Shown here one piece after another: positions 6,908-50,445 of a stretch of DNA of 54,541 nucleotides. Both the position numbers and the translations under genes were made by a program. The notes beneath the pieces were generated by a model that saw nothing but the letters and a program-made list of their open reading frames with translations, was not told the DNA's origin and did no database searches. The DNA comes from Nitrospirota bacterium (lineage in GTDB: Bacteria; Nitrospirota; Nitrospiria; 2-01-FULL-66-17), in the NCBI GenBank assembly GCA_040757335.1, contig JBFLXB010000024.1, forward strand, positions 1 through 54,541. Reading direction: 5' to 3'. The number at the start of each line of letters is the position of its first letter. The stretch's first letter is position 1.

Positions 6908-9900
6908 ATGAAACCAGTCACGCGCATCGTGAACCTCTCCGGTTCTTCCCTGGTCGCTTTCGCGCTCGGGGCGTTGATCGGTCTTCCAAATCAGGCCTTG
7001 GGCGCTGTCCCCGGGGACATCTCCCCGGCCGGGGCGCCGGATGGCGTGATCACCATGCCCGACGCGCTCCGCGCCCTGCGCATGGTCGTGGGCCTGGAGA
7101 CGCCGACTCCCGAAGAACGCGTCACCGGCGATGTGGCGCCGCTCCTGGTGAATGGTGGGCAGGTGGCGCTCGATGCCAATGGCCAGGTGCTGTCCACCCC
7201 GGATGGCCGCATCGGCATCGGTGACGCGGTGGTGCTGGCGCGCGCCGGCGTCGGGCTCATCCGTCTCCCGGAAATCAGCCCGCTCGCCGCGGCGCGGGCC
7301 GGGCACACCGCCACGCTCCTCCCCAACGGACAGGTGCTGATCACGGGAGGGGACGGCGGCGCCGGACCACTGCCCACCGTGGAGTGCTTCGATTCCGCCA
7401 CGCGCGCGTTCAGCCCCACGAGCGGCGGGCTCACCACCGCGAGAACCCAGCACACCGCGACCCTGCTCCCCGATCAGAACACCCTGCTGGTGGCAGGACG
7501 GGACTCGGCCGGCCCCACGCCGTCGCTCGACCAGATTCGCTTGTGCGGCGCCCCCACCAGCCTCTCCGCCACGTTGATCGCCCGCGAGGAGCACGCCGCC
7601 GTGCTCTTGGCCGACGGCACCCTGTTGATCACCGGCGGGCACAATGCCGACGGAGCGATCCTGGCCACCGCCGAGCGCTACAACCCGCGCACCCGGACCT
7701 TCACCCCACTGGAACCGATGACCAGCGCCCGAGCCGGCCACAGCGCCACGCTGTTGTCCGACGGCATGGTCTTGATCGTTGGTGGAGTGACGTCGGACAC
7801 GTCCGGCAACTCGGTTGTCGTGGCATCCGCCGAGCGGTTCGACCCGACCACCGGCGTGTTCACGCCCCTCTCGACGCCCTTGCCCACGCCCCGCGCGGGC
7901 CATACCGCGACGCTCTTGCCTGACGGCCGGGTGCTGATCCTGGGCGGTGCGGACGCCACCCCGACGGTCCTCGCCTCGGCAGACATCTTCGATCCCTCGT
8001 CGGGATCATTCAGCGCGTCGCCGTTCGTTCTCCGCGAGGCGCGGGCCGACCACAGCGCCACGTTCTTACCGGATGGGCGGCTCTTGGTCGTCGGTGGCCG
8101 GAATGCCGCGGGCCCCCTGGTCTCGACCGAGCTGATCGGGCCGCAGGCCGACGCCACGGCGCCCACCGTGCTCGCCGTCATCCCACCCGACGGCGCGACC
8201 GGCGTCGCTCCCGATTCGATGGTCGCCGTCCATTTTTCCGAGCCGCTTCGCACGACGTCGGTTTCGAATGCCACGGTGGGGCTTGTCCCGGAGGCGAGCC
8301 CCACGAGCCGAGTCGACGGGACGGTGACCCCGGCCGAGTCCGGCCTGCTGGCGTTCTTCACCCCCAGCGCGCCGCTTGAGCCCGGCACCACGTATACGCT
8401 CACGCTGGGACCCGGGATCTCGGACACGGCGGGCAAGCCGCTCGCCACCACGACCCAGAGCTTTACAACCAATCATCCGCCCGTGCTGGCGCCGATCGGC
8501 AACCGGGTAGTCAACGAGGGGCAGGTCCTGCAGGTCACGCTGAGCGCGACGGACGTCGACGGCGATGAGCTGACGGTTTCGGCCGTTGACCTTCCCCAAG
8601 GAGCGACGTTCGATCCCGCGATCCGGACCTTTAGTTGGACTCCAGGATTCTCCGTCTCGTCGCCGACTGCCAACAACTTCTTCGATGTACTCTTCACGGT
8701 GTCGGACGGCCAGGTCGGCGGAACGGACAGCGAGACCGTGCGGATAACGGTGAACGACGTGACCACGCTGACCGGAATCACCGTTACCCCGGCCAATCCG
8801 ACCATCAACGTCGGCGGAAGCCAACAGTTCACCGCCACGGGCAGCTTCAATGATGGATCGACCCAAGCGCTGACCAACGTGCTCTGGTCCAGTGATTCCG
8901 CTGCGGCCACGATCACCAATGACGGCCTGGCTACAGGGCGTGTTGCGGGGAGCGCCCTGATCACCGCCACCTCGGGCAGTGTGAGCGGGAGCACCACCCT
9001 CACCGTCGCGAACCGCTCTCCCCTCGCCAACGCGGGGCCCGACCAGACCGCGGAAGCCACATCGCCTACAGGGGCGACGGTCACATTGGACGGCTCGGGA
9101 TCGACGGATCCCGACGGTGATTCACTGAGCTACTCCTGGGCCGAGGCCGGCGACGTCGTCGCCACCGGCTCCACGCCCACCGTCCCGTTCTCGCTGGGCA
9201 GCCATACCATCACGCTGACCGTGGCGGATCCGACAGGGGCAACCGGCACCGACACCGTCGTCATCACCGTCCGGGATACCACGCCTCCCGTGCTCGCGAA
9301 CGTCCCCACCAATCAGACGGCGACGGCGACGAGCCCGAGCGGCGCGCTGGTCGAGTACCCGTCTCCCACTGCGAGCGACGCGGTCAGCGGCACGCTCCCC
9401 GTCTCGTGCGATCCGCCGTCCGGCACCACATTCCCCCTTGGCGCTACCACGGTAACCTGCACGGCCACCGATGGGGCCGGCAATGTTGGCCGGGCGTCCT
9501 TCACCGTGACCGTGGTCACGCCCACCACCCTTGCGGTGACCGTGCTCGGGGGTGGCCCCACCGGCCACGATCCGCTGCCGGGCGTCCGCGTGCTCCGACA
9601 CGATCCGGCCACCGGCGCGTTGCTCGGCGATCTCCTGACCAATGCGAGCGGCGTGGCAGACTTCGGGGACATCGGCGCCACCCGGGCCACGATCTCGATC
9701 GTGACCACGCGCGCGCAGAGCACACCTCCGAGCCACGACATCTTCACCTACGTGGATGTGCCGGCCGGCGCCCTTGTGGCCGACGCGAACGTGAACAACG
9801 GGCTCGACCGCCCGGTGCTCGCCAATGTAGACGCGACGCTGTTGAACCTGCCGCAAGGCTCGGTATTCGCCAACCTGTTTGCCGGCGGGTTCACCTCCAG

Positions 9901-12900
9901 CGGCGCTCTCGTGCAGAACGGCTCGGCGCAGTTCCCCGCATATCCGATCGACCAGTTCCAGAGCGACCTGAAGTTCAGCCTGCTCGGTGCGGCGATTGAC
10001 GCGACGGGTGCGGTGGTGGGATGTGGCTCGTTGGTCGACCTGGATCCCCAGACCTCAGGCAGCGCCGCCGTGTCGATCGACGCCGCCGTCGCTCCCGGTC
10101 TCATCCCCTTCACCGCCTCGGAGCCGGCGATCTTCGAAGGGCTCACGATGTTACGGAGAGGCCTGGTGTGGAACCTCTTCAATTTTGGTGGTCAAGGGGG
10201 CCCGGCCACGTCGGGTACGCTGGCCGTGTGTCCGTTGCAGGACGGCGAGCGATTCGAGCTTTCGTTCCGGGCGCTCGAAACGGCGACGTCGTCGTCGCGC
10301 GGCATCAGCCTGACCTCGTCAGTCCTGCCGGAAGCACTGGACGTCACCCTGCCCGCGCTCTCGATCGATACGCTCGGGCGCAGCACGGACGGTCGCACCA
10401 TTAACTGGCAAATCTCCGGTGCGGACGCCGGCCAGCTCGACGTGGCGTACACGGAGCTGAACTGGGCCGGCACGGCCGCAGAGTACCGCTGGGGCCTGGT
10501 CGCTCCCCAGACCGCAACCGAGGTCTTGCTCCCGTCGCTGCCCGCGGACCTGGCCGACCGAGTGCCGCCAGCGACCGGCACCGGACTGTTTTTGTATCTG
10601 GGTGGATTCGATACGATCACCGGGTTTGACGATCTCGTGAGCCAGGTCTCGGCCGACCGCGGTGACTTCGACGCGACCTTCCTGCGAGCCGCCCAGGAGA
10701 TCAATGTCGAACGCTCAAGCCGCTTGCTCGCCGTGACGGTCGAGGGGACGGGTTCGGGCCGGGTGGTCTCCGAGCCTGCGGCAATCGACTGCGGAACGGT
10801 CTGCACCGCCAACCTCCCAGGGGACACGCTGATCACCCTGACCGCCACCCCCGACCCCGGTTCCAGCTTTATCACCTGGGAAGGCAACGTGGGCTGTGGC
10901 AGCCAGAACCCCTGCACCTTCCGCCTGCTGGATGACGTGACGAGCGTCACCGCAACATTCGAGACGATCCCCAATCGGATCCCAGTCGCCGATGCCGGAC
11001 CTGATCAGGTCGTGGAAGCCACGTCGCCCGCAGGCGCCTCGGTCACGCTGGACGGCTCGGGGTCCACCGATCCAGACGGTGATCCGCTGACGTATACCTG
11101 GAGGGATGCCGCAGGCGGTACCATCGAGACCGGGGTCTCTCCCACGCTCATCCTGCCGCTCGGCAGCCATACCATCACGCTGACCGTCACCGATCCCACA
11201 GGCGCGACCGGCAATGACGAGGTCATCATCACCGTCCAAGACACCACGCCGCCGGACACGATCATCGACAGCGGCCCAGCGGATACCCTGCTTATCACTG
11301 CCACGTTCACCTTCCACTCCACTGAAACCGGAAGCACGTTCGTGTGCGAACTGGACGACGGCCTCCTTGTCGCCTGCGCCAGCCCGGTGACGTACACCGA
11401 TTTGGCCGAAGGCCCGCATACCTTCATGGTCCGGGCGACCGACCCCTCGGAAAATCCGGACCCCACACCGGCCACGCACAACTGGACGGTGATTCCGTCC
11501 ACGATCTTTGTCGACGGAACCACCGGGATCGACAGCTCCACCTGCGGCACGCAAGCCGAGCCCTGCAGGACCGTGACCCAAGGTCTCGTCCGCGCCGTCG
11601 CGGGGCAGACCGTTTCCGTGGCGGCTGGATCTTACAGTTTCGGCAATATCGGAGAAGAGCCCCTTCCACTTGCCGTGAAATCTGGGGTGGCCCTCGTTGG
11701 GGCCGGCGCCGACTCAACCTTCCTGGATTTCAACAGTACGCAGGGCAACAACCCCGATATCGGAATCACGATGGCGGATCAGGCCACACTCTCTGGCTTT
11801 ACCTTTCGTGTAAATGATTACTTCGATTACCTCATCGACCTCGTAAATGTGAGCATCTTCGGCACCACAACGATTCGGGACAACCTTTTTGTGGACCTCA
11901 ACTGTGCCCGTTGCCTGACCGTCGCGATACGCGTCCGCGGGGGGGGAGAGGTCCCGCCGTCTCCCGTGATTAGCGGCAATATTTTCGGCCGTGTTGACGA
12001 GTTTGGCAATTCCGAGGGTTTTCTCACCGCCCTGCTCGTCGAAGTCTTCGCTAATCCACGAGTGGTGGCCAATACCTTCATAGGAAACGACACGGGGATC
12101 CGTACCGACCTTGGCGCGATGCCGATCATTGAAGGCAACACGCTCATCGGAAACTATGTCGGGATCTCTCTCGACAAAGAACCCAATCTTGTGGGAGGCG
12201 GCGTCGGCGCAAGCAACGGTGGTAATACTCTTGGCTGCAACCGGGACGCCGACATGGTCAACAATACGCCCAATGCCATCTCGGCTCGGAATAACGCCTG
12301 GGATCATGTCCCACCAACCACCGGGAGTGTCTTGGGAAACGGGGTCGACATCGCCAATACCTCGCAAGGAAGCGTCGATGCCACCGGGGCCACCCAACAG
12401 ACCACGTGTTTTAATCTCGTCGTGGTCACGGCAGGAAGCGGCAGCGGGTCCGTCGGCGTAGAACCCGGAGGGATCGGCTCTGGCTCAAACGGCTCCACGT
12501 TCTTCATCGCCGGGACCGCCGTTACGTTGACGGCCTTCCCCAACACCGGGTCGGTGTTCGCCGGGTTCAGCGGAGGGTGCGCCAGTACCGCCACGACCTG
12601 CACCTTCACGATTACGCAAGACACGGTGGTCACCGCCACCTTCAACAATTCCACGCCGACGATTACGAGCGTGAACCCGACCCCGGTGACGTTCGGAGTC
12701 ACGCCCAGCGGTGCGGTAACGATCGATGGGGCGAACTTCGTCGTGGGGGCGACGATCACTGTGGGTGGCCTTTCTGGGCCAACTGTGGCGGGCAGCACCG
12801 CGAGCGCCTCGACGCCGTTTGTGTTCGTCGACAGCACGCGATTAAGGTTTTATTGGCCCAACACCTCCTTAACCCCGGGTAGTTATGGAGTGCGGGTCAC

Positions 12901-14827
12901 CAACCCGACTGCCGCAGGGGGCCTGTCGACTACGTTGGCGAACGGCTTTACCGTCAACGCGGCCCAGCCGACGATTGCGAGCGTGTCGCCCTCCTCGGTA
13001 ACGTTCGGCGTCGATCCGAGCCGGTCGGTGACGATCCTGGGCTCCAACTTCGTCCTGGGGGCGACGATCACCGTGGGGACTCTCACCGGCGCGACCGTCT
13101 CGGGGACAACCGCAACAGCGGGGACACCATACGTGTACGTGAGCGATAATCAAGTCCAGTTTTACTGGCACAACACCACGCTCGCCCCGGGGGTGTACGA
13201 CGTGGTGGTGACCAACCCCGTTGCCTCTGGAGGGTTGGCGGCGACTCTGACGAACGGCTTTACGGTTATTCAGAGCTTTACCCTCACATTGACCAAGACA
13301 GGGCCTGGGACGGGGACGGTGTCGAGCAGCCCGCAGGGGGTCAACTGTGGGACAGCCTGCACCAGCCAGTCCTTTACCTTTAGCGGCGGCACCGTGGTCA
13401 ACCTCTCCGCCAGCCCGTTAGCCGGGTCGAATCTCATGGGGTGGAGCGGCGCCTGTCTCGGAACAGGAATCTGCTCCGTAACCATGGACGCGAACAGGTC
13501 GGTGGCGGCACACTTCAACCTGCAGGCGGTCCAGATCAGCACCGGCCAAGCTCATTCCTGCGCGCTTATATCAAATGGAACGATTAAGTGCTGGGGGAGC
13601 AACTCCAGTGGCCAAGTTGGAGGCCCATCCCTTTCCACCGTGACCGGAATCACTACCGCCACGTCTGTTGAGGCTGGAGCGAGTCACACTTGCGCCCTTC
13701 TGGCGAACCGCACCGTCCAATGTTGGGGATCAAATAGTAGCGGGCAACTGGGCGACGGGACCACCGGCGGCTCTACTACCACTCCGGTGACGGTCAGCGG
13801 CATTTCAAATGCCGTAGCGATTTCCTCCGGCGGAAGTCACACCTGCGCGGTGCTATCGACGGGGGCGGTGCAATGCTGGGGCTTGGGAACCAGCGGTCAA
13901 CTCGGCAACAATGCGTTCAATAATTCCGCGACCTCTGTCACGGTGTCCGGAATCACGACTGCCGTGGCCGTGTCGGCCGGAGGGGCGCACAGTTGTGCCG
14001 TTTTATCGACTGGGGCGGTGCAATGCTGGGGGAGCAACGGCTCCGGTCAATTGGGGAGTCCAACCGCCAGCAGCGGGGCATCCCCAGTACCGCTTACGGT
14101 CAGCGGCATCTCAACTGCAGTCGCGGTCTCAGCCGATAACGCCCACACCTGCGCAACCCTATCGAGTGGCGCAGTCCAATGCTGGGGATCGAACAGTAGC
14201 GGCCAGTTGGGCAACGGGACCACCGGCGGTTCCTCTACTTCGCCAGTGACGGTCAGTGGTATCTCAACTGCAGTGGCGGTCTCAGCCGGTAACGCCCACA
14301 CCTGCGCATCCCTGTCGAGTGGGGCTGTATCATGCTGGGGGGACAACGATTCGGGGAAATTGGGTAACGGAGACGAAACGTTGACAGACCGCGCAAGTCC
14401 CGTTGGGGTTTCGGGCATTTTCACCGCCACTGCCGTGGCCGCTGGCGGAAGCCACAGCTGCGCCGTGAGGTCTGACGGGAGAGTTCAGTGCTGGGGCTCG
14501 GGAGGCTTCGGTCAGCTCGGCAACCAACTTGCCGGTGGCTTCTTCTTCACATCGCCCGTGGGAGTCATCAGTCTATTCGGCTTTACTCTCACCGTTGACC
14601 GGTCGGCGTCTGGGGTAACCATCACGTCGTTCCCCTTCGGGATCGGCTGCTCTGACGTGTTTGGTGGCCCGACAACCGTGACGTGCGCGGCCTCGTTCCT
14701 GAGTGGGACCAGGGTGACGCTCTATGCAAGACAGACCGCAAATCCAGCAGACAACGTGGCTTTCCGGCAATTAACCGTTGGCGGGGATACAACAGTCACC
14801 GTCACGCGGTCTGATCTTCCGTTCTAA
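6908..14827 (+). CDS. giant secreted multidomain protein with N-terminal dockerin-like module
   Basis: A 2639-residue exported protein. Residues 1-33 are a signal peptide. Residues 34-118 look like a dockerin: two calcium-loop/helix repeats, GDISPAGAPDGVITMPDALR and a second GDVAP with PDGRIGIGDAVVLARAGVG. About 120-415 are kelch-type repeats (RAGHTATLLPNGQVLITGG). They are followed by a Big_5/SbsA Ig-like domain (415-522), a cadherin-like/putative Ig domain (523-617), Big_2 (618-702), PKD (703-790) and HYR (791-870). A carboxypeptidase-regulatory-like stretch and unassigned region lie at about 873-1270, then a bacterial repeat domain (about 1272-1352), a second PKD (1358-1446) and an Ig-like domain (1448-1530). 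The remainder is a DUF1565 beta-helix (1532-1835), two IPT/TIG domains (about 1916-2123) and seven RCC1-type repeats (about 2207-2555). A good AAAGGTG site precedes ATG 6908. A surface or matrix adhesin held by neighbouring cohesins is inferred. No catalytic domain is recognised. Confidence 0.8.
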   Translation: MKPVTRIVNLSGSSLVAFALGALIGLPNQALGAVPGDISPAGAPDGVITMPDALRALRMVVGLETPTPEERVTGDVAPLLVNGGQVALDANGQVLSTPDGRIGIGDAVVLARAGVGLIRLPEISPLAAARAGHTATLLPNGQVLITGGDGGAGPLPTVECFDSATRAFSPTSGGLTTARTQHTATLLPDQNTLLVAGRDSAGPTPSLDQIRLCGAPTSLSATLIAREEHAAVLLADGTLLITGGHNADGAILATAERYNPRTRTFTPLEPMTSARAGHSATLLSDGMVLIVGGVTSDTSGNSVVVASAERFDPTTGVFTPLSTPLPTPRAGHTATLLPDGRVLILGGADATPTVLASADIFDPSSGSFSASPFVLREARADHSATFLPDGRLLVVGGRNAAGPLVSTELIGPQADATAPTVLAVIPPDGATGVAPDSMVAVHFSEPLRTTSVSNATVGLVPEASPTSRVDGTVTPAESGLLAFFTPSAPLEPGTTYTLTLGPGISDTAGKPLATTTQSFTTNHPPVLAPIGNRVVNEGQVLQVTLSATDVDGDELTVSAVDLPQGATFDPAIRTFSWTPGFSVSSPTANNFFDVLFTVSDGQVGGTDSETVRITVNDVTTLTGITVTPANPTINVGGSQQFTATGSFNDGSTQALTNVLWSSDSAAATITNDGLATGRVAGSALITATSGSVSGSTTLTVANRSPLANAGPDQTAEATSPTGATVTLDGSGSTDPDGDSLSYSWAEAGDVVATGSTPTVPFSLGSHTITLTVADPTGATGTDTVVITVRDTTPPVLANVPTNQTATATSPSGALVEYPSPTASDAVSGTLPVSCDPPSGTTFPLGATTVTCTATDGAGNVGRASFTVTVVTPTTLAVTVLGGGPTGHDPLPGVRVLRHDPATGALLGDLLTNASGVADFGDIGATRATISIVTTRAQSTPPSHDIFTYVDVPAGALVADANVNNGLDRPVLANVDATLLNLPQGSVFANLFAGGFTSSGALVQNGSAQFPAYPIDQFQSDLKFSLLGAAIDATGAVVGCGSLVDLDPQTSGSAAVSIDAAVAPGLIPFTASEPAIFEGLTMLRRGLVWNLFNFGGQGGPATSGTLAVCPLQDGERFELSFRALETATSSSRGISLTSSVLPEALDVTLPALSIDTLGRSTDGRTINWQISGADAGQLDVAYTELNWAGTAAEYRWGLVAPQTATEVLLPSLPADLADRVPPATGTGLFLYLGGFDTITGFDDLVSQVSADRGDFDATFLRAAQEINVERSSRLLAVTVEGTGSGRVVSEPAAIDCGTVCTANLPGDTLITLTATPDPGSSFITWEGNVGCGSQNPCTFRLLDDVTSVTATFETIPNRIPVADAGPDQVVEATSPAGASVTLDGSGSTDPDGDPLTYTWRDAAGGTIETGVSPTLILPLGSHTITLTVTDPTGATGNDEVIITVQDTTPPDTIIDSGPADTLLITATFTFHSTETGSTFVCELDDGLLVACASPVTYTDLAEGPHTFMVRATDPSENPDPTPATHNWTVIPSTIFVDGTTGIDSSTCGTQAEPCRTVTQGLVRAVAGQTVSVAAGSYSFGNIGEEPLPLAVKSGVALVGAGADSTFLDFNSTQGNNPDIGITMADQATLSGFTFRVNDYFDYLIDLVNVSIFGTTTIRDNLFVDLNCARCLTVAIRVRGGGEVPPSPVISGNIFGRVDEFGNSEGFLTALLVEVFANPRVVANTFIGNDTGIRTDLGAMPIIEGNTLIGNYVGISLDKEPNLVGGGVGASNGGNTLGCNRDADMVNNTPNAISARNNAWDHVPPTTGSVLGNGVDIANTSQGSVDATGATQQTTCFNLVVVTAGSGSGSVGVEPGGIGSGSNGSTFFIAGTAVTLTAFPNTGSVFAGFSGGCASTATTCTFTITQDTVVTATFNNSTPTITSVNPTPVTFGVTPSGAVTIDGANFVVGATITVGGLSGPTVAGSTASASTPFVFVDSTRLRFYWPNTSLTPGSYGVRVTNPTAAGGLSTTLANGFTVNAAQPTIASVSPSSVTFGVDPSRSVTILGSNFVLGATITVGTLTGATVSGTTATAGTPYVYVSDNQVQFYWHNTTLAPGVYDVVVTNPVASGGLAATLTNGFTVIQSFTLTLTKTGPGTGTVSSSPQGVNCGTACTSQSFTFSGGTVVNLSASPLAGSNLMGWSGACLGTGICSVTMDANRSVAAHFNLQAVQISTGQAHSCALISNGTIKCWGSNSSGQVGGPSLSTVTGITTATSVEAGASHTCALLANRTVQCWGSNSSGQLGDGTTGGSTTTPVTVSGISNAVAISSGGSHTCAVLSTGAVQCWGLGTSGQLGNNAFNNSATSVTVSGITTAVAVSAGGAHSCAVLSTGAVQCWGSNGSGQLGSPTASSGASPVPLTVSGISTAVAVSADNAHTCATLSSGAVQCWGSNSSGQLGNGTTGGSSTSPVTVSGISTAVAVSAGNAHTCASLSSGAVSCWGDNDSGKLGNGDETLTDRASPVGVSGIFTATAVAAGGSHSCAVRSDGRVQCWGSGGFGQLGNQLAGGFFFTSPVGVISLFGFTLTVDRSASGVTITSFPFGIGCSDVFGGPTTVTCAASFLSGTRVTLYARQTANPADNVAFRQLTVGGDTTVTVTRSDLPF
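13526..14570 (+). repeat. RCC1-type tandem repeats inside the giant protein gene
   Basis: About seven units of roughly 150 bases, each encoding a version of AVSAGGAHSCAVLSTGAVQC followed by WGSNxSGQLG. Units starting at 14097 and 14250 are almost identical at the DNA level and exactly 153 bases apart, which points to recent in-frame duplication. Confidence 0.85.
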
Positions 14828-15023: not shown

Positions 15024-15563
15024 ATGCGTACGATGAGGAGAATTGTCTGGCTACTCGTATTGGGGTTGATCATGAGCGCGTCCCCGGCAGCGGCGGGCGA
15101 CAAGGAGAAGACCGCGCTGAAGTTTACGGCCGGCGTATTGAGCGGCGACGCGCAGGGGCATGGCCGGGTGGAATTTGAGAACGGGGCTGTGAGTGGCAAG
15201 ATCTCGGCCAAGGATCTCCCTGCCCTCCCGACAGGGCAGTTCTACGTGGCCTGGTACACCAATATCGAAAACGGCAACGCCGCGTTCCTCGGCGCATTGG
15301 TGAGCCATGACTCGATTCTGTTTACTGAGGACGAATCCGAAGGCGCGCTGCGGTTCTCGGCCGACGCCTACACTGTGCACCTGCCGTTCCCAGGGACGGG
15401 CGACTTGGTCGGCCAGCCCATTTATCCCGCGTCACCGGGGGGGAATCAGATCGTCGTGTTGGTGGAGCGAGCCATCAACGGGAGGACGCCCGCGCCCATC
15501 AACCCGCCGGCGAGTTTTCCGCCCGGGCCGGTGGAATCCGCCGTGTTGGTCGTGAACTTCTAG
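15024..15563 (+). CDS. small exported protein of unknown function
   Basis: A 179-residue protein with a clear signal peptide (MRTMRRIVWLLVLGLIMSAS, cleavage near AAAG). The mature part is beta-rich, with GHGRVEFENGAVSGKISAKD, then FYVAWYTNIENGNAAFLGAL and NQIVVLVERAINGRTP. I do not recognise the family. ATG 15024 is chosen because GAAAGGAAA (15012-15019) precedes it and the signal peptide starts there, although the frame stays open for 246 more bases upstream. It has its own strong terminator. A decayed copy of its 3' half lies at 16492-16735, so the gene was once duplicated around the cNMP gene. The 196 bases separating it from the giant gene show no other feature. Confidence 0.75.
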   Translation: MRTMRRIVWLLVLGLIMSASPAAAGDKEKTALKFTAGVLSGDAQGHGRVEFENGAVSGKISAKDLPALPTGQFYVAWYTNIENGNAAFLGALVSHDSILFTEDESEGALRFSADAYTVHLPFPGTGDLVGQPIYPASPGGNQIVVLVERAINGRTPAPINPPASFPPGPVESAVLVVNF

Positions 15564-15576
15564 AGTTTGACCCATA

Positions 15577-15607
15577 GCGAGGAGGGCACGGAGCGTGCCC
15601 TCCTCGC
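15577..15607 (+). terminator. strong hairpin terminator
   Basis: A perfect 14-bp stem (GCGAGGAGGGCACG at 15577-15590 with CGTGCCCTCCTCGC at 15594-15607) and a GAG loop, 14 bases after the stop codon of the 15024 gene. No T-run follows, but the stem is very stable and separates the secreted-protein locus from the next transcript. Confidence 0.7.
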
Positions 15608-15654
15608 GGTAACCGAAGGCAACACCGCAACGACGCTACAAGCTCAAACCCGGG

Positions 15655-15773
15655 CTTGACAAAGCCCATTCGGTCGTAGTAAGAAGCAGTTCCATTTGTG
15701 TCACCTCATCCGGGGCACACGTGTTCCTACAATCTTCGACATTCACGATCGACCATCGCAAATCGATGGCCCC
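15655..15773 (+). promoter_or_regulatory. conserved ~120-nt intergenic element, copy 1
   Basis: This non-coding stretch shares five ordered blocks with 50289-50410 on the other strand: CTTGACAAAG, CGGTCGTAGTAAG, TTTGTGTCACCT, AATCTTCGAC with TTCACGATCG one base later, and CAAATCGATGG. It starts with a -35-like TTGACA and ends 131 bases before the cNMP gene at 15904. As RNA it could form GGGCUU-GACA-AAGCCC at the 5' end and CCAUCG-CAAAU-CGAUGG near the 3' end. It may be a duplicated promoter-leader, a structured leader RNA or small RNA, or a small repeat. The nature is open; the conservation is plain. Confidence 0.75.
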
Positions 15774-15903: not shown

Positions 15904-16497
15904 GTGGATCAGACAATCGTGAGAAGCGAGAAGTACGAAAACGGGAAGACGATTATCGAGGAAGGAACCTGGGCCTTTTCCGCGTACATTATCAAGTCCG
16001 GTAAGGTCAAACTCTGGAAAGTAGTCAATGGAAAGCAAGTCCAATTCGGCACCTTGAACGAAGGCGAGATCTTCGGAGACATGGCCTTCTTGGGCGGCTC
16101 AAAGCGCACCGCTTCGGCAACCGCTGAAGGTCCGGTGGAAGTCGGGGTGATTTATCAAGACATGTTTATGGACGCGTTGCATAATCTCCCAGAAGATCTG
16201 CGCCACAAGGCCCAGCTTCTCGTCAGCGATTTGAGTGGGCTTACCGATATCTACGCCCGGTTGACCAGCGCGCTCCAGGACGCAAAAGAGATCAAGGCGA
16301 GGATGGAAGACTTCAAATCGCTTGAAAAACAGTTCGAGAAGGCGCCCGAATATCTGCGTGCGGTGCTAGTCGCCTTGATACGGCGTCTTCATGGGGCCAT
16401 CGAAGGCTGTGCAAAGCTGGCAGCCGAGATCGACTCCGGGAACAAATCGGTCGACTCACTCGCAGCCCCGCCTCGGCTGGCGGCCGTGGGGCACTGA
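15904..16497 (+). CDS. cyclic-nucleotide-binding domain protein
   Basis: A 197-residue cytoplasmic protein with one cNMP-binding domain at about residues 8-115 (GTWAFSAYIIKSGKVKLWKV, then GEIFGDMAFLGGSKRTASAT). In the phosphate-binding cassette the arginine is kept but the usual glutamate is aspartate (FGDMA), so ligand binding may be altered. Residues 120-185 are helical with coiled-coil character. There is no DNA-binding domain. Start is GTG 15904, 6 bases after GGAGGT (15892-15897). The last residues (about PPRLAAVGH) are encoded where a decayed gene copy begins, so the original C-terminus may have been replaced. A conserved 120-nt element lies upstream. It may act as a cyclic-nucleotide sink or as a regulatory subunit for an unknown partner. 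Confidence 0.8.
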   Translation: MDQTIVRSEKYENGKTIIEEGTWAFSAYIIKSGKVKLWKVVNGKQVQFGTLNEGEIFGDMAFLGGSKRTASATAEGPVEVGVIYQDMFMDALHNLPEDLRHKAQLLVSDLSGLTDIYARLTSALQDAKEIKARMEDFKSLEKQFEKAPEYLRAVLVALIRRLHGAIEGCAKLAAEIDSGNKSVDSLAAPPRLAAVGH

Positions 16498-16735
16498 TCA
16501 ACCAGGTCTCGATTCTCTTTTCCGAAGACGAAACCGCGGCACGTTGCAGTTCTCGGCAAACGCCTATGGTGTGACCTGCCATTCGCGGGACGGGCGACAA
16601 GTCCAGCCCGTTTACCGCGTCACGGGGGCGGAACCAGATCGTCGTGTTGGTGGAGCGAGCCATCAGCGGGAGGACCTCTGTGTCCATCAATCCGCCAGCG
16701 AGCTTCCACCCGGCCAGGCGGAATTTTGCTTGATC
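16492..16735 (+). pseudogene. decayed copy of the 3' half of the 15024 gene
   Basis: The DNA closely follows bases 15296-15545 of the exported-protein gene. Shared runs include CTCGATTCT, then a long run ending in TCGTCGTGTTGGTGGAGCGA, then CCATCAACGGGAGG / CCATCAGCGGGAGG, then AATCCGCCAGCGAG. Frameshifting losses (for example around 16535 and 16575) remove the reading frame. It has no start codon or signal region. It adjoins, and slightly overlaps, the end of the cNMP gene. Confidence 0.85.
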
Positions 16736-16781
16736 GGGATCGTGTACCGTGCTATGGTGTTCGCTCTCGGCGAGGACAACT

Positions 16782-17474
16782 ATGTCCCGAGCCCTCCAGA
16801 AAGTCGCCTTTCTTCGCCAAACGACGTTGTTCTCCGAGCTTCCCTCGAACGACCTGGAGGCGCTCTCGCTTCGTGTCCGGGAGCGCACCTACCGAAGGCA
16901 CGAAACGGTATTCCACCTCGACGATCCGGGTACCGCCCTTCTGTTGATCCGGACCGGCCGGGTCAAGGTCACGCTGACCAGTAAGGAAGGAAAAGAGATC
17001 ATCCTCCGCATCGCGGGGCCGGGCGAGATCGTCGGGGAAGTGGCCCTGTTGGACGGCCAGCCCCGCTCCGCGACGGTCGTGGCGCTGGAGAAGATCGAGG
17101 TCTTTCTCCTTGACCGGGACGCCTTGATCGAATTCATCAGCCAACACCCCAATGCCGCACTCAGGCTGCTGGCGGTGTTGAGTTGGACCATTCGCCGAGC
17201 CAACGACCGGATCGGCACGCTCGCGTTCGCCGACGCATATGGAAAGGTGGCTCAGGTCCTGCTCGATCTCGTCAAAAAACACGGGCAGGCGAACGGGACC
17301 GGTATCGAGGTCGCCGTCGATCTCACCAGGCAGGAGATGGCGTCGCTGGCCGGCGTCTCGAGGGAAACCTTTACGCGCATCCTGAAACTCTACGAACAGG
17401 CCGGATTACTCAAGGTCGACCGGCGTTGTCTCCACATCCTTTCCAAGGACCGCTTGAGCCTCGAGGTGCTCTGA
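16782..17474 (+). CDS. Crp/Fnr-family transcriptional regulator
   Basis: A 230-residue regulator with the full CRP layout: cNMP-binding beta-roll (about residues 15-125), a long dimerisation helix, and a C-terminal winged helix (about 150-225) with recognition segment DLTRQEMASLAGVSRETFTR. The phosphate-binding cassette VGEVALLDGQPRSATV keeps both the glutamate and the arginine needed for cyclic nucleotide, and there is no FNR-type N-terminal cysteine cluster. It is therefore more likely a cyclic-nucleotide sensor than an oxygen sensor. ATG 16782 is preferred to the upstream in-frame ATG 16749, as MSRALQKVAFLRQTTLFSEL matches the usual N-terminus. A CRP-type palindrome at 17511 lies between it and the next gene. 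Two cyclases and a phosphodiesterase follow downstream. Confidence 0.88.
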   Translation: MSRALQKVAFLRQTTLFSELPSNDLEALSLRVRERTYRRHETVFHLDDPGTALLLIRTGRVKVTLTSKEGKEIILRIAGPGEIVGEVALLDGQPRSATVVALEKIEVFLLDRDALIEFISQHPNAALRLLAVLSWTIRRANDRIGTLAFADAYGKVAQVLLDLVKKHGQANGTGIEVAVDLTRQEMASLAGVSRETFTRILKLYEQAGLLKVDRRCLHILSKDRLSLEVL

Positions 17475-17510: not shown

Positions 17511-17526
17511 CGTGATTCGGGTCACA
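17511..17526. promoter_or_regulatory. candidate CRP-type operator
   Basis: CGTGA-TTCGGG-TCACA fits TGTGA-N6-TCACA at 9 of 10 positions. It lies 37 bases after the stop of the Crp-family gene and 110 bases before the nucleotidyltransferase start, a sensible place for regulation of the latter. Confidence 0.5.
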
Positions 17527-18642: not shown

Positions 18643-18672
18643 TTGACAGCGGCCGTTTATTCCCGCTACCAT
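18643..18672 (+). promoter_or_regulatory. candidate sigma70-type promoter for the cyclase gene
   Basis: TTGACA at 18643-18648 and TACCAT at 18667-18672 with an 18-base spacer. Transcription would begin near 18680, after the first possible ATG (18671), which supports ATG 18755 as the real start of the next gene. Confidence 0.5.
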
Positions 18673-18754
18673 GGCCTTCTACACCAACACGCCGGTGTTC
18701 CGTGAGTCGTGGGTTCGGCCCGCGGCAACCGCCGGCGCTCGCAGAGGTCATGCC

Positions 18755-21613
18755 ATGACGGGTGAAGACCAGAGCGCCGAGACCAGGAAACTCGGGAGCT
18801 ACCTTGACTGCCCGCCGGAGGCCATCGACCGAGTCATCTCCTACCAACAACAGCTCGCTGCGGAGGGCGTGAATAAACCCTTGGGACGTTTGCTCGTGGA
18901 GTGTCGGACGGTCTCCACCCAATCGATCGAGACCGCCCTCCGCGACCAACGGGTGGACCGCCTCCGAGGCTGCTGGCTCTTCTCCGAACTGGACGACGAC
19001 GAACTGCGGGCGCTCGCACCCCTCGTGCATGAACAGAGCATTCCCCCAGGCGAGGAGTTTCTGAGCCAAGACCGGCTCGGTGACGGCTTGTACGTCCTGG
19101 CATCGGGCCGCGCCCTGGTGTTTCGGCGGGAGGACGATGGGCAAGACCTCACGCTCGATACGATCGGCCCGGGCGAGAGCGTGGGTGAAATGGGGTACTT
19201 CTCCAGCGGCCGGCGGTCGGCCTCGGCCCGCGCCATCGAGGAGCTCCAGGTCCTTCGGATGGCCTACACCGAGCTTGATCAGGCCATCGATGCTGCTCCT
19301 CGCCTCGCTCGACGCCTGCTCGAGCTGGTAACCGGCCGGTTGCGTCGGCTCAACCTCCGCTTCCAGGACGTCACCCACACCAGCCGGGACGCCGAACACT
19401 CGCTCAAGGGCCTCCAGAGTTTCCTCGACCTCTCAGAGGTCTTGGCCCTTCGGATGGATATCGAGGGCCTGATCGACCGGGTCGTCCGGACCGCCAGCCA
19501 GGTCATGCACGCCGAGCGAGCCTCGCTCTTTTTGATCGACGCGGCAACCGGCGAGTTGTGGTCCAAGGTCGCCGAGGGCGAGGAGCGGCGCGAAATCCGC
19601 TTCCCCATCGGCGCCGGGGTGGCCGGCTGGGTCGCCCAGCACGACCAGGTGTTGAATATCGCCGACGCGTATGAGGACGCCCGCTTTAACCAGGCGGTGG
19701 ACCTCGCCACAGGGTATCGCACGCGCTCGATCCTCTGCGGGCCGGTGAAGAACCTCCAGGGGGAGCCGATCGGGGTCATCCAGGTCATCAACAAGCAGGG
19801 GGGGGGATTCGGACCGGACGACGAGCTGCTGTTTCGGGCATTCGCCTACCAGACCACGATTGCACTGGAAAACTTCTCGCTCTACCGCAAAATGCGCGCC
19901 AGCCATGAGAAGATGGCGATCCTGCTCGACGTGGCCACCTCCGTGGCCCAGACCCTCGACCTCGATGTCCTGGTGGCCAAGATCATCCACAAGGTCTCGG
20001 ACCTCTTGGACGCCGAGCGCAGCACGCTGTTTTTGGTCGACCCCGAAACCGACGAGCTGTGGTCGAAGGTCGCCGAGGGCAGCGGCGAGTCCGAGATCCG
20101 GTTCCCCCGCTCCCTTGGCCTGGCGGGAACCGTGGCCACCACCGGTGAGATCGTCAACATCGAGGACGCCCACCGCGATCCGCGGTTTAACGCCGCGATC
20201 GACAAGCAGACGGGGTTTCGGACTCGCTCGGTGTTGTCGGTGCCGGTGCGCAACCGCGAGGGGACGATCATCGGCGTGACCCAGGCCATCAACAAACGCC
20301 GGGGCGTGTTCGACCGTCACGACGAAGATCTCCTCCAGGCCCTGGCGTCGCAGATCGCAGTCGCCATCGAGAACTCCCAGCTCTACCAGCGCACCGTCGG
20401 CATGAAGCGGTACCTGGAGAGCGTGCAAGAGAGCATCTCCAACAGCATCCTCACGCTCGACAACGCCTATCGCGTGGTGACCGCCAACCGCGCGGCGCTG
20501 AAGATGCTCGGAGAACCGACGGAGACTATCCTTAAACAGGATATTCGGCAGTTACTGTGCATGGGGAACGACTATCTCATCCGCCTCATCGACCAGGTCT
20601 ACGCCACCCGCCGAGCCCTGGTCGAGTATGACGTCGACCTCAACTTTCTGGGGGGACGCGTGGCCTCGTCGAATCTCAACTTCCTTCCCCTTCTCGATCA
20701 TCAAGGTCAACACCAGGGCGTGATTCTGATTTTCGAGGACATCAGCCGCGAAAAACGCGTGAAGTCCACGTTGATCCGGTACATGGCCAAGGACATCGCC
20801 GAGCGGGTGCTCGATGATCCCAACCAATCCGCCTTGGGCGGCACCCGCAACAAGGCCACGATTCTGTTCTCGGATATTCGAGGGTTCACCACGCTGGCGG
20901 AAGGATTGACCGCCGAGCAAACGGTTGAACTACTCAACGAGTATTTCGGCCGAATGGTCGACGTCGTCTTCCGCCAACGGGGCGTGCTGGACAAGTACAT
21001 CGGCGACGCCTTGATGGCGGTTTTCGGCGTGCCTTACCAGCATCCGGATGACCCCGAGCGCGCCGTCCAGGCCGCGATCGAGATGCTCGGCGCGCTCGAC
21101 GAGCTGAACACGCAACGGAGAGCCGCGGACCTGGAGCCGATCGAGATCGGCATCGGCATCAACACCGATGAGGTCGTCTCGGGCAACATCGGATCCCAGA
21201 AACGGATGGACTTCACCGTCATCGGCGACGGAGTCAATCTTGCCTCGAGGCTGGAGGGTTTAAACAAACTGTACGGGACGCGGATCTTGCTCAGCGAATC
21301 CACTCATCGCGAAATGGGGAAGCGATTTGTGGTCCGCCCCATCGACCACGTGCTGGTCAAGGGCAAACACCAACCGACACAGATCTTCGAGGTGCTCGGC
21401 GAACGCGGCTATCATCTGTCTCGGTCGGAGGAGCTGTTCTGCGAGGGACTCACCGCCTACCGTCGACGGAACTTCGCGAAGGCACGGTCGCTGTTTGAGC
21501 AGGGCGCCAAGAACGACCCGCCATGCTCGGTCTTCGCGGCCCGGTGCGAGCACCTTCTCCGCGAGCCTCAACCGCCGGATTGGGACTTGGTATGGGTGTG
21601 CGAGGCGAAATAG
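18755..21613 (+). CDS. cNMP-GAF-GAF-PAS class III adenylate cyclase
   Basis: A 952-residue soluble sensor cyclase. An N-terminal helical region is followed by a cNMP-binding domain (about 65-190) with an intact cassette ([16 protein letters not shown]). Two GAF domains follow (about 240-390 and 410-560), both with the LWSKVAEG and PVRN/PVKN motifs, then a PAS-like segment (about 565-680) and a class III cyclase domain (about 690-870). The cyclase keeps the metal aspartates (FSDIRGFT and [11 protein letters not shown]), the adenine-selecting lysine (DKYIGD) and aspartate (MDFTVIGDG), and the [10 protein letters not shown] Asn/Arg pair, so ATP to cAMP is the expected reaction. About 80 C-terminal residues are helical. 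ATG 18755 follows AGAGGT by 6 bases. Having its own cNMP domain suggests feedback by its product. Confidence 0.88.
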
Positions 21614-21812
21614 ACCTCGCCGGTCCATGAGCGGTCGTCTGCGGCGTTGCCGCTGCGGGAATCCCTCGTCACGTAGAACCCAGTACGCTCCGGAGGGAGC
21701 CCTTGCGGCGTCTTGCATCCGGCCGCCCCTGAACAGACTCGAACGGCCCAATACCGGGGAAGATTCCTAACCGTCCTCTTCCCCGCCCATCGGCCGACCA
21801 GGATACCCGTCA

Positions 21813-23993
21813 GTGAATCTCCTTAAACCGGTACGACACACGACGTCACGTGACCGACGGGTTGCGCGATGGGCCTGGGGCTTGAGCGCTGCTATCACGC
21901 TCGTGTTTGCCCTCGTCGAGGTGGCTCGTCCTCCGGTGATTCGTGACGTGGCCGATCTGCTCGAGATGAAGACGCTCGACATTCGGTTCCGTCTCCGATA
22001 CGCCCATCGCGGCGCCGAGCAGCGCCCCGACGACGTGGTCATTGTAGGGATCGATGAGGCCAGCTTGGCCGCCGTCGGCCGCTGGCCGTGGCCGCGCGCC
22101 GAGATGGCGCGTCTGGTCGATGCCATCGCCGCCGGCCATCCCCGGGCCGTCGCCCTTGACATTCTGTTCGCCGAGCCCGAGGTCTCCGAGTCGGCGCGAA
22201 CGATCGAGGCGGTGCGGCGCGACTACGCGGCGCTCGGCTCGCCGGATCCCCGATTGCTCGACGTCATCGGCCGTCGCGCGATCGAAGGAGATGCCGACCT
22301 CCGGTTCGCCGACGCGCTGGGCCGCGCGGGCCGCACGGTGTTGCCGGTGGCCCTGGTGGTCCCTCCCACATACCAGACCGATCCCGCGGGCCCTCCACCG
22401 GACGCGCCCCCGGTCGTGGTCGAGTCATCGTTCGGTCTGGTCAAGGCGGCGAGCCGGGCCTCGCTGTTCCGGCCAATCGAGGCCGAAGCGATGATCGCGC
22501 CGATCGAGCCGCTGGCTCGGGCGGCCAGCGCGCTGGGGCACGTGTACTACCAGCCAGACCTCGACGGCGTGCTGCGTTGGGAATACCTGATGCTGCAATA
22601 CGGCGACGAGTACTACCCGTCGTTCGGGCTCCAGATTGCTCGCGCAGCGCTGGGACTTCCCCGCGAGGCGATGCGGCTGGTGGTCGGGGAGGCCATCGAG
22701 CTGGGGGCGATCCGGATCCCGACCGACGAACGCGGCAGGGTGCTGATCAACTACGAAGGCCGCGAGGGCGAGTTTCTCACCATCCCGGCGATCGAGGTTC
22801 TCAGCCGACCCGAGGCGGCCGAACAGTTTCGGGACCGAATCGTCCTGGTCGGCGCGACCGCGCTCGGCACGCACGACATCAAAGTGACGCCGCTGTCGGC
22901 CAACCTCCCCGGCGTGGAGAAGAATGCCACGGTGGTGCACAACCTCCTGCATGGGAACGTCCTGCGCCGGACCGACGCCATGAAACTGCTGGACGCGGGC
23001 TTCGTGCTGATCTTCGGCGCCTCCCTAGGCATGATCCTGCCGCGAGTCAGCGCGTTGCGTGGGGTCTCGGTCGCCGCGGGACTGCTGCTCGGTTACGGCC
23101 TGATCGCCCAGGCGTTCTTTGAACTTGGCGGGCTCTGGATCAATGTCCTCTATCCGTCCATGACGATCGTGCTCTGCTACACCGGGCTGACCGTCCTCCG
23201 CTTTATGACCGAGGAACGGCGCGCGCAGGAGATCCGCCGCCTCTTCGCAAGCTACGTCAGCCCCAAGATGGTCGCGGAGTTGGTCAAGGATCCGGATAAG
23301 GCGAAGCTCGGCGGCCAGCGAAAGGAACTGACCGTGATGTTCTCGGACGTGCGCGGGTTCACCAACTTCTCGGAACAGAACCCGCCGGAGCGGGTGGTGG
23401 CGATCCTCAACGAATACCTCACCGCCATGACCGAGGTCGTCTTCCGTTGGGACGGCACGCTGGACAAGTTCATCGGGGACGCGATCATGGCATTTTGGGG
23501 AGCGCCGGTCGACCAACCCGATCACGCGGAGCTCGCCGTCCGGTGCGCCCTGGACATGCGGCGGCGCCTGGCCGAACTCCAAGCCGCGTGGCGCGCCGCC
23601 GGCACGCCCCAGCTTAACGCCGGTATCGGGATCAACACCGGCGAGATGGTCGTCGGCAACACCGGCGCGGAGGGGAAGAAAATGGACTACACGGTCATCG
23701 GCGACCACGTGAATCTGGCCGCCCGGGTCGAATCGCTCACCAGAAAATACAATGCCGGAATCCTCGTCAGCGACTCGACCTACCGGAAGATCAAGGACCT
23801 CGTGCTCATCGCGGAACGCCATCAGCCCGAGCGGCGACGGCTCGCCCAGCCGATTATCCACCCGAACCGAAGAACCGGGCCCATGGCCGTCGGGCACGTC
23901 ACCTTCACCCCGTTGGGAGAGGTGGAAGTGAAGGGCCGAGCCCAGCCGGTGGGGCTGTACGAGGTCATCGACGCACGGAAGGAGCCATCGTGA
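21813..23993 (+). CDS. CHASE2-domain class III adenylate cyclase
   Basis: A 726-residue membrane sensor cyclase. One N-terminal membrane helix (about 20-40) leads to an extracytoplasmic CHASE2 domain (about 45-380, with DDVVIVGIDEASLAAVGRWP and FRDRIVLVGATALGTHDIK). Three membrane helices (about 390-460) and a cytoplasmic cyclase domain (about 490-720) follow. Catalytic features are present: FSDVRGFTNFSE, KFIGDAIMAFWG, the adenine-type MDYTVIGD, and HVNLAARVESL. The start is GTG 21813 with AGGA upstream. CHASE2 cyclases often pair with FecR-domain proteins, and one lies at 3267. The phosphodiesterase gene starts inside its stop codon (GTGA overlap), so synthesis and breakdown are translationally coupled. 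The stimulus sensed is unknown. Confidence 0.9.
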   Translation: MNLLKPVRHTTSRDRRVARWAWGLSAAITLVFALVEVARPPVIRDVADLLEMKTLDIRFRLRYAHRGAEQRPDDVVIVGIDEASLAAVGRWPWPRAEMARLVDAIAAGHPRAVALDILFAEPEVSESARTIEAVRRDYAALGSPDPRLLDVIGRRAIEGDADLRFADALGRAGRTVLPVALVVPPTYQTDPAGPPPDAPPVVVESSFGLVKAASRASLFRPIEAEAMIAPIEPLARAASALGHVYYQPDLDGVLRWEYLMLQYGDEYYPSFGLQIARAALGLPREAMRLVVGEAIELGAIRIPTDERGRVLINYEGREGEFLTIPAIEVLSRPEAAEQFRDRIVLVGATALGTHDIKVTPLSANLPGVEKNATVVHNLLHGNVLRRTDAMKLLDAGFVLIFGASLGMILPRVSALRGVSVAAGLLLGYGLIAQAFFELGGLWINVLYPSMTIVLCYTGLTVLRFMTEERRAQEIRRLFASYVSPKMVAELVKDPDKAKLGGQRKELTVMFSDVRGFTNFSEQNPPERVVAILNEYLTAMTEVVFRWDGTLDKFIGDAIMAFWGAPVDQPDHAELAVRCALDMRRRLAELQAAWRAAGTPQLNAGIGINTGEMVVGNTGAEGKKMDYTVIGDHVNLAARVESLTRKYNAGILVSDSTYRKIKDLVLIAERHQPERRRLAQPIIHPNRRTGPMAVGHVTFTPLGEVEVKGRAQPVGLYEVIDARKEPS

Positions 23994-24754
23994 ACATACG
24001 GGTTTTGGGGTGCCACGGGGCCGAGCTCGCGCACCGCGACACATGCGGGTTTCTCATCAATGACACGGTCTTGCTCGACGCGGGAACGATCTGCTCCGCG
24101 CTGACGCTGACCGAGCAACGGAACATTCGGGCGATCTTGATCTCGCACATCCACGCCGACCACATCAAGGGACTGCCGTTTCTGTCCGAAAACGTGATCG
24201 GCGAGCCGGGGCCCCCGATCGTGATCTATGGCCTCGAGCCCGTGCTCGAGGGCCTGCACCGCTACCTGTTCAACGACCACCTCTGGCCCGACTTCACCCG
24301 CATTCCGGCCTCGAACCCGCTGTTTCGGTTGCAGCCGATGGCCGAGGGCGAGACGGTCCAGATCGAAGGGCTGGCCGTGCAGGCGTTCGCGGTCAACCAC
24401 ACCATACCGTGCGCCGGGTTTGTGATTCGCCGCTCCAGGACCGCGTTCCTCTACAGCGGGGACACGTACCAGACCGAGCGGATCTGGCACGTCGCGGCCC
24501 AGACACCGGACCTCAAGGCCGCGATGATCGAGACCTCGTTCCCCAACGCGCTCGACGATCTGGCTCGGCGCAGCAAGCACCTCACCCCCGCCCTGCTCGC
24601 GCAGGAATTCGCGAAGCTGGGCCGTCCCGAGCTGCCGTTGTACATCTATCACATGAAGCCCCGGTACCTGGACACGATCCGCCGCGAGCTCGACGCGCTG
24701 GGGATCAAGAATCTGGAGGTTTTGGCAGATGGCCAAGTCTTCGAAATCGCCTGA
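23990..24754 (+). CDS. class II 3',5'-cyclic-nucleotide phosphodiesterase (metallo-beta-lactamase fold)
   Basis: A 254-residue cytoplasmic enzyme expected to hydrolyse cAMP to AMP. The metal-binding stretch ISHIHADHIKGLPFLSEN closely matches the class II phosphodiesterase signature (HxHLDHxxG). Further ligands lie at AVNHTIP, LYSGDTYQT and YHMKP. The length is in the family range. The start GTG 23990 overlaps the cyclase stop by 4 bases, with GGAAGGAG just upstream. It in turn overlaps the next gene by 26 bases. Its position behind a cyclase is the best evidence for substrate. A general metallo-hydrolase is the alternative. Confidence 0.8.
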   Translation: MNIRVLGCHGAELAHRDTCGFLINDTVLLDAGTICSALTLTEQRNIRAILISHIHADHIKGLPFLSENVIGEPGPPIVIYGLEPVLEGLHRYLFNDHLWPDFTRIPASNPLFRLQPMAEGETVQIEGLAVQAFAVNHTIPCAGFVIRRSRTAFLYSGDTYQTERIWHVAAQTPDLKAAMIETSFPNALDDLARRSKHLTPALLAQEFAKLGRPELPLYIYHMKPRYLDTIRRELDALGIKNLEVLADGQVFEIA

Positions 24755-48451: not shown

Positions 48452-50103
48452 TGGTGTCCTCTCTCTGGTGGGGAACCCGCGCGTGAGAGCTCCCTCCGCT
48501 GCTGGGCGAGCCGCTCGAAACGCTGGGACAGTTCCGGAAAATACGAGAGCAACGCGGCGAAGTCTCCCCGCCGGACGCTGACGAGGCTCCCATTGGTGCG
48601 GCCGCGCACCGTCGCCGATCGCGACTGCTGCCACAGCAGGGCCATTTCGCCGAAATATTCGCCGGGCCCTAGGGTCGCCAATCGGGCCTCCTGTCCCTGG
48701 TCGTCTTCTTTGAACACGTCCACCTCGCCGTCGGTGATGAGATACATCCGATCCCCAAGCTCGCCCTGCCGGACGATCGTCTCGCCCGCCTCGAACCGCT
48801 CGGTGGCGAAACTTTGGGAGGGTTGGACCTTGAGCTGAACGATATCCGGCGGCATGAGGAGGTCGAGCGCCCAGTCCAGCCCCACGCGCAGTTTTCGTTC
48901 GAGGCCGGGGAGCTTCATGAGGTAGACCGCCCTCCAGATCAGCCATGCGAAAAATCCGGAGAACTTGATCCCGAACACCTCCGCCACCGCGGAGTAATGA
49001 CCCAGCGAACCCAGCTTGCCCAAGCCCGAAAAGACAAACGGGACCTTGTCACCGCCGTGAATGGCGGCGTAAATATTCCGGGCCGCGCACTCCGCCTCTC
49101 GCACCGCAAATTGAGCCGTCGCCGGGGAACGGCCGCCCTTGACGCGATCGGGAATCCAGGCACAGTCCCCCAACGCCCAGACCCCGGGTTGGCCTCTAAC
49201 CTCGAGGAATTCGTCCACCATCACCCGGCCCCGCTTGTCCTTTTCGATCGGCAATCCCATGATCAACGGATGGACCCCGGGGGGCACCGTCGACACCAGG
49301 GTACGGGCCGGGATCTTGCTCCCGTCGGTGAGAAACACTCCTTCAGCGGTAGCCCCCTTGGCTCGGCGGTTCAGCTGAAGCTCGACCCCGCGACGCCGCA
49401 AGAGCCGCTCGGCGTAGGCGGCCAATCCCTCGCTCATTTCTTCGAGGATCCGGGCCCCCTTGTCGATCAACACCACCCGAATGTCCTGGGGCCTCAGGTG
49501 TGTGTAGCTGCGGCCAGCCTCCCGGAGAAAATCGTTCATGGCGGCCGCCACCTCCACCCCAGAAAACCCCCCTCCCACCACGATGTAGGTCAACAGCTGC
49601 TGCCGCAGGCAAGGGTCTTCCTCGATCGCGGCCTCCTCCAGGGTGTGGAGCAGATGATTACGAAGGGCCAGGGCATCGCCGAGGTTCTTGAAGGGAAAGG
49701 CATACTCCTGAAAACCAGGCGATCCGGAAAAGTCGGTGGTGGTCCCGGGCGCCAGAACGAGGTAGTCGTAGCGGATGGATGTCGGCTTGGGGCGAACCCC
49801 GGGGCTGGTGACGATGATTTTTTCATCGAGGTTGATGCTTTGGACCTCACGGGTATAGAGGGTCACCCGCGGGCACAGCTTCCTGATCGGGATCACCACG
49901 TGGGTGAGACCCACGCTGCCGGAAATCACCTCCGGGAGCATGGGTTGAAACACAAAATAGTTCTCCCGATTGATCAGGGCGATCTCCACCCGTTCCCCTC
50001 GGCGGTGCCGGCGCCACAACCGGTCGAGCGCCATGGCGGTATAGACGCCCGAGAATCCTCCTCCGATGATGACGATGCGTCGAGCGGCGGCCTGAGTCGA
50101 CAC
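48448..50103 (-). CDS. type II NADH dehydrogenase with C-terminal cNMP domain
   Basis: A 551-residue peripheral membrane flavoprotein. FAD motif RIVIIGGGFSGVYTAMALDR, then NRENYFVFQPMLPEVISGSV, the NADH motif YIVVGGGFSGVEVAAAM, GVWALGDCAWIPD and the membrane-binding amphipathic region VYLMKLPGLERKLRVGLDW match NDH-2. Residues about 415-540 are an added cNMP domain with Glu and Arg of the cassette present (YFGEMALLWQQSRSATV). The usual enzyme is about 400-450 residues. The start is GTG 50103 with AGAAGG upstream. A perfect 16-bp palindrome and the conserved 120-nt element lie in the leader. It may be the first gene of the transcript. Confidence 0.88.
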   Translation of the reverse strand: MSTQAAARRIVIIGGGFSGVYTAMALDRLWRRHRRGERVEIALINRENYFVFQPMLPEVISGSVGLTHVVIPIRKLCPRVTLYTREVQSINLDEKIIVTSPGVRPKPTSIRYDYLVLAPGTTTDFSGSPGFQEYAFPFKNLGDALALRNHLLHTLEEAAIEEDPCLRQQLLTYIVVGGGFSGVEVAAAMNDFLREAGRSYTHLRPQDIRVVLIDKGARILEEMSEGLAAYAERLLRRRGVELQLNRRAKGATAEGVFLTDGSKIPARTLVSTVPPGVHPLIMGLPIEKDKRGRVMVDEFLEVRGQPGVWALGDCAWIPDRVKGGRSPATAQFAVREAECAARNIYAAIHGGDKVPFVFSGLGKLGSLGHYSAVAEVFGIKFSGFFAWLIWRAVYLMKLPGLERKLRVGLDWALDLLMPPDIVQLKVQPSQSFATERFEAGETIVRQGELGDRMYLITDGEVDVFKEDDQGQEARLATLGPGEYFGEMALLWQQSRSATVRGRTNGSLVSVRRGDFAALLSYFPELSQRFERLAQQRRELSRAGSPPERGHQ

Positions 50104-50410: not shown

Positions 50411-50445
50411 CACTTGCTAACAACAGCACTTGCTAGCAACAGCAC
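50409..50445. repeat. 16-bp tandem repeat
   Basis: Two full units (AGCACTTGCTAACAAC at 50409 and AGCACTTGCTAGCAAC at 50425) and a partial third, directly upstream of the -35-like end of the conserved element on the - strand. The position suits repeated binding sites for an activator, or slippage. Confidence 0.7.

Follow-up and report, generated by a model that had tools for sequence, protein, structure and literature searches.

Promoter duplications have reportedly been described among the FixJ-regulated genes of Sinorhizobium meliloti (Ferrieres et al. 2004, doi 10.1099/mic.0.27081-0, cited in PMC7888657). The locus examined here would resemble these rhizobial cases, in which the regulator is known, in that a copied promoter region brings a second operon under the control of the first. 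Two further kinds of system are close to it in other respects: CRP/FNR-type regulons, since one of the two operons concerned includes a gene for a CRP-type regulator whose recognition helix (SRETFTRIL) is canonical, and structured 5' leader RNAs - that is, riboswitches and attenuators - since the element occupies the leader position at an operon head, on the sense strand, and contains predicted hairpins. Our subject is an element of about 120 bases present twice in the window, by which we mean the whole stretch of 54,541 nucleotides that was analyzed. The reading that we favor, and hold to be fairly probable on what the sequence offers, is that the element is a single cis-regulatory cassette, composed of a promoter and a 5' leader, which exists in duplicate and co-controls both operons.

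As delimited by blastn/SW alignment, the whole conserved stretch lies at 15654-15773 on the plus strand (copy 1) and at 50289-50411 on the minus strand (copy 2). Identity between the two copies is about 78%, and when all 3.56 Mb of the genome were searched the second copy was recovered at E = 1.6e-15; 89 of 122 columns match in the local alignment. The alignment score of the two intergenic regions was 101, compared to a maximum of 36 among 500 shuffles. Matches are far from evenly spread: 70 of the 89 fall inside six identical runs of 10 to 15 bases (15, 12, 12, 11, 10 and 10) joined by variable linkers, and none of 20,000 shuffles of the match pattern placed as many columns in runs of at least 10. 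The clumped mismatches and the alignment score relative to shuffles therefore show that the duplication is real and that its blocks are constrained, and exclude both chance and a uniformly decaying copy. As clumped rather than uniform conservation is what sites under constraint are expected to leave, it was counted in favor of the promoter-leader reading. The first-pass annotation had described blocks recurring in the same order on opposite strands, and all those it quoted are present at both places. It had also reported that no open frame is common to the copies, which is borne out: the indels between them, of 1, 1 and 5 bases, shift the blocks into different frames, so that no peptide is common to both, and a shared peptide encoded by the element is ruled out. 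Its third observation, that each copy lies 130 to 190 bases upstream of a gene for a cNMP-domain protein read in the same direction, agrees with the distances measured to the start codons, which are 130 bases for copy 1 (start at 15904, plus strand) and 185 bases for copy 2 (start at 50103, minus strand); a cNMP domain is found in both proteins.

The copies point towards each other from the heads of two long, converging gene clusters, and both are in sense orientation, each between a terminator-like hairpin and an operon head. The hairpin preceding copy 1 is a strong palindrome (15574-15610) closing the upstream gene, 44 bases before the element, and the one preceding copy 2, also belonging to the upstream gene, lies at 50568-50603, about 157 bases away. 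Because each copy directly follows such a hairpin, a promoter is needed between hairpin and operon head. The genes upstream and downstream of copy 1 differ from those around copy 2. The plus-strand run behind copy 1 starts with a cNMP-only protein (15904-16497, plus strand; PF00027, with a homologue 38% identical over 184 aa in G004, a relative from another family), the CRP-family regulator carrying the SRETFTRIL helix (16749-17474, plus strand) and a nucleotidyltransferase, and continues with a cNMP-GAF-PAS-cyclase, a CHASE2-cyclase, a metallo-hydrolase/PDE-II-like protein and a glycogen debranching enzyme. On the minus strand, the first gene behind copy 2 encodes an NDH-2 in which a domain search placed a C-terminal cNMP domain (48448-50103). 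The run comprises two NDH-2 proteins with cNMP domains, a porin, a di-haem peroxidase-like protein, a GH15 enzyme, transketolase, a transaldolase-PGI fusion, 6PGD, G6PD, PGL, FBPase, an aldolase, glucokinase, a cytochrome b561 and a molybdopterin oxidoreductase. Judging from gene order, each run would be one transcript. The same stretch thus stands ahead of two otherwise unrelated operon heads, which is the mark of a duplicated promoter; its regulatory nature is what we infer. The two operons functionally belong together, and this was also counted for the promoter-leader reading.

Several features of these clusters deserve mention in their own right. Two cyclases with different sensor make-up and the PDE-II-like hydrolase form a dense cNMP cassette (18671-24754) adjoining the CRP-type regulator. 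The transaldolase-phosphoglucose isomerase fusion (35192-38038, 948 aa) has a 76% identical counterpart in G004. The open frame of the NDH-2 with a cNMP domain at 45770-48946 shares about 500 bases with the preceding gene, and its similarity to G004 begins only at residue 198, so that its true start is probably further in. Upstream of copy 1, a surface-type protein of 2639 aa (6908-14827) carries Kelch, Ig-like, PKD, DUF1565 and RCC1 repeats. A 16-base tandem repeat (2.3 copies, 50409-50445) adjoins the -35 end of copy 2 only. Finally, a direct repeat of about 230 bases (80%; 15305-15537 and 16502-16724), derived from the 3' end of the upstream gene, flanks copy 1 together with the cNMP-only gene, its second unit (16502-16724) carrying indels; the arrangement suggests that the block holding copy 1 and the cNMP-only gene came in ahead of the CRP gene through recombination or tandem duplication.

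Within the element, a weight-matrix scan for sigma70 sites (background median 6.7, 90th percentile 9.8, 99th percentile 13.1) ranked the same aligned position top in each of the two leaders. The predicted site in copy 1 is TTGACA-N18-TAAGAA, scoring 12.5 (-35 at 15656-15661, -10 at 15680-15685, plus strand), and that in copy 2 is TTGACA-N17-TAAGGA, scoring 10.2 (-35 at 50404-50409, -10 at 50381-50386, minus strand). The -35 is a perfect TTGACA and the spacing is 17 or 18; the -10 is weak, with 3 of 6 matches for TAAGAA, 3 of 6 at most for TAAGGA, and no T at position 6. Owing to these weak -10 hexamers, a stricter promoter scan returned no promoter in either copy. Given the top-ranked aligned sites and the hairpins upstream, blocks 1 and 2 are the probable core promoter, of sigma70 type, block 1 supplying the -35 and the end of block 2 the -10 (TAAG(A/G)A).

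Under the promoter-leader reading, transcripts would start near 15692 and 50374, and their first 80 nt or so would consist of the rest of the element, with a stem-loop made of block 3 and its arm at the 5' end. Block 3, which reads TTTGTGTCACCT in copy 1, spans with its 3' arm 15695-15721 on the plus strand in copy 1 and 50344-50372 on the minus strand in copy 2, and the hairpin is predicted to form at the 5' terminus of both transcripts even though the 3' arms diverge. In copy 1 the stem bases of its 5' arm pair with a probability near 1, leaving one unpaired mismatch base. Compared with shuffled arms the hairpin gave p = 0.04 (copy 1) and p = 0.007 (copy 2), and about 10-12% of random 32-mers from the window fold as well. 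Blocks 4 and 5 would be two more conserved sites in the leader, at about +40 to +80 from the predicted start, and may act as leader RNA or as operator sites. Block 4 reads AATCTTCGACATTCACGATCG in copy 1 (15731-15751, plus strand) and AATCTTCGACGTTCACGATCG in copy 2 (50311-50331, minus strand); block 5 reads CAAATCGATGG in both (15759-15769, plus strand, and 50293-50303, minus strand). A hairpin at block 5 was no better than chance, and sequestration of the ribosome site by block 4, hinted at by the folds, did no better than shuffles or other gene starts. Both operons would then be switched jointly, by one regulator or one leader-dependent control, which would couple cNMP signaling (two cyclases, a phosphodiesterase-like protein, the CRP-type regulator and the cNMP-only protein) to the NDH-2/pentose-phosphate genes.

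Candidate regulator sites were sought in the element itself. Neither copy contains a CRP dyad (TGTGA-N6-TCACA) even with up to 2 mismatches, a pattern scan of the element found no FNR site, and the search for a sigma54 promoter (GG at -24, GC at -12) gave weak matches at 15713 and 50351 that lack the GC. As for the surrounding window, the CRP-type core GTGA-N6-TCAC occurs 6 times where 0.7 are expected; two occurrences are intergenic, one ahead of the nucleotidyltransferase/cyclase genes (17511-17526) and one in the copy-2 leader outside the element (50209-50224), and both are candidate sites for the CRP-type protein of the copy-1 operon. The FNR-like motif TTGAT-N4-ATCAA, with at most 2 mismatches, is found 19 times in the window against 8.4 expected, a count reached by none of 100 shuffles, and most of these lie inside genes.

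A check proposed by the first-pass annotation, a search of the genome and its relatives by BLASTN and covariance model, counted two copies and no more in the 3.56 Mb genome, and none in 269 other Nitrospiria genomes. DNA, covariance-model and single-block searches of the genome agreed on this number, revealing no third or partial copy and no solitary block site above chance. The element was likewise not found in a phylum sample, plasmids or phages, and exact-pattern scans of IMG/VR viral contigs and of 84,980 species genomes did not recover it; six 18-base matches to block 4 in IMG/VR are about the number that we estimate to arise by chance in a collection of that size. A 21-base match in genome G002 was set aside, as its position, at the start of a gene, has a context unrelated to that of the element, and a covariance-model match in L107 has E 0.45. 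Among relatives that share the genes, G004 preserves the gene order of the NDH-2 operon except that GH15 is missing (53-81% protein identity), a synteny counted in favor of the promoter-leader reading, and carries at a separate locus cyclase and PDE genes (57-64% identical) with the 38% identical cNMP-only protein; G040, from another family as well, keeps NDH-2 and one cyclase. The leaders of the orthologues in G004 and G040 do not contain the element, those of NDH-2 having also been searched with filters off. The first-pass annotation had named loss in close relatives keeping the genes as grounds against its proposal. Retention of the genes without the element is indeed seen in G004, which belongs to another family, while the two same-family genomes examined have no NDH-2 gene. 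Within the reach of these comparisons, the element is confined to its lineage; no close relative that has the genes was among them.

These results bear unequally on the functions that could be assigned to the element. The first-pass annotation had offered a duplicated regulatory leader, a small RNA or a dedicated repeat, and the regulatory leader is best supported, by the two copies at operon heads, in sense, with an aligned promoter. Dispersed repeats in dozens of copies irrespective of gene context, which it had named as a contrary outcome, are contradicted by the genome-wide count of two. A plain mobile or neutral repeat without function (MITE-like, or a segmental duplication) is improbable in our view: the element occurs in one genome only, and the decayed 230-base direct repeat shows that the stretch around copy 1 underwent rearrangement, but there are just two copies, neither terminal inverted repeats nor target duplications were seen, divergence is clumped, and both copies occupy an equivalent promoter position, ahead of operons that belong to one cluster. 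A gene for a trans-acting small RNA, in two copies, found no specific support and appears more improbable still; there is weak structure on the sense strand, but neither copy has a sense-direction terminator at its 3' end, and both run into a coding operon and occur in no other context. A duplicated array of DNA operator sites, in which blocks 3 to 5 bind protein at positions overlapping and downstream of the promoter, is a possibility that we regard as less than even; it overlaps our favored reading, from which it differs in that blocks 3 to 5 would act at the DNA level. Block-wise conservation, an inverted TCGRTCGTRR-type motif in blocks 2 and 4, and the CRP-type regulator encoded in the copy-1 operon speak for such an array. 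Against it, the blocks are spaced differently in the two copies, by 1 to 5 bases, which alters the helical phase, a GTGT..ACAC dyad is 23 long in one copy and 24 in the other, and the element offers neither a CRP, an FNR or a good sigma54 site nor solitary counterparts elsewhere above chance.

The whole 120 nt could instead be transcribed, from a start further upstream, as a structured leader RNA resembling a riboswitch or attenuator. We consider this unlikely, as we do the fold proposed for it, which would combine a 5' hairpin GNGCUU-GACA-AAGYNY, a long helix between blocks 2 and 4, and an inner GUGUCACC hairpin. The consensus fold of the core reaches -21.0 kcal/mol, which 2 of 400 column shuffles equal, but the core was picked afterwards from two sequences only, and for the whole alignment 8 of 400 shuffles are as good. 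This support for conserved structure is weak and suggestive, and specific to the sense strand, which stands at z -3.0 compared to +1.4 for the reverse strand, which is worse than its shuffles. Pairing of the first hairpin is kept through changes of G-C to G-U, G-C to U-G and G-C to G-U, so that one pair is altered on both sides, in two sequences only; the single-base indels lie in a junction and a loop, and the 5-base indel inside the inner hairpin. On the other hand, the fold of copy 2 by itself is no better than those of shuffled sequences, the search of Rfam 15 gave no match at gathering score, there are no further copies for covariation, and the sigma70 weight-matrix scan finds no better promoter in the 44 bases that separate the upstream hairpin from copy 1. 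A leader of this kind is also hard to reconcile with transcription starting inside the element. Still more doubtful is that it represents an undescribed class of structured leader RNA, ligand- or protein-bound, linked to cNMP or redox state and used twice; were this true, the class would be the means by which a Nitrospiria lineage couples its cyclic-nucleotide signaling with NDH-2 and the oxidation of sugars.

The promoter-leader reading has its own difficulties, all of which were counted against it. A promoter alone leaves conservation as far as +80 unexplained, the -10 hexamers are weak, the element contains no nameable regulator site, and the equivalents in G004 and G040 lack it; moreover, the -35 and the spacer, which the predicted promoter would leave untranscribed, take part in the conserved sense-strand pairing given by alifold. 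With these points weighed, the element is real and probably regulatory, and if the promoter-leader reading is true, its 120 or so bases in two copies provide a concrete handle for finding the regulator.

Set beside known systems, the element departs from each. It lacks a GTGA-N6-TCAC box of the kind that a CRP/FNR-type regulon would call for, the nearest being that at 50209-50224, outside the element, and unlike established structured 5' leader RNAs it has neither an Rfam match nor a covariation set, being represented by two sequences only. Compared to the FixJ promoter duplications, conservation here seems to reach about 80 bases beyond the predicted start, and the copies are only two, both in one cluster. 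Promoter duplication is a known kind of event; this particular element is an orphan, and it stands out by how far conservation reaches beyond the predicted start and by the gene cluster served: if our reading is true, a copied control region links a dense cNMP-signaling cassette with an operon for respiration and sugar oxidation in a lineage of uncultured Nitrospiria.
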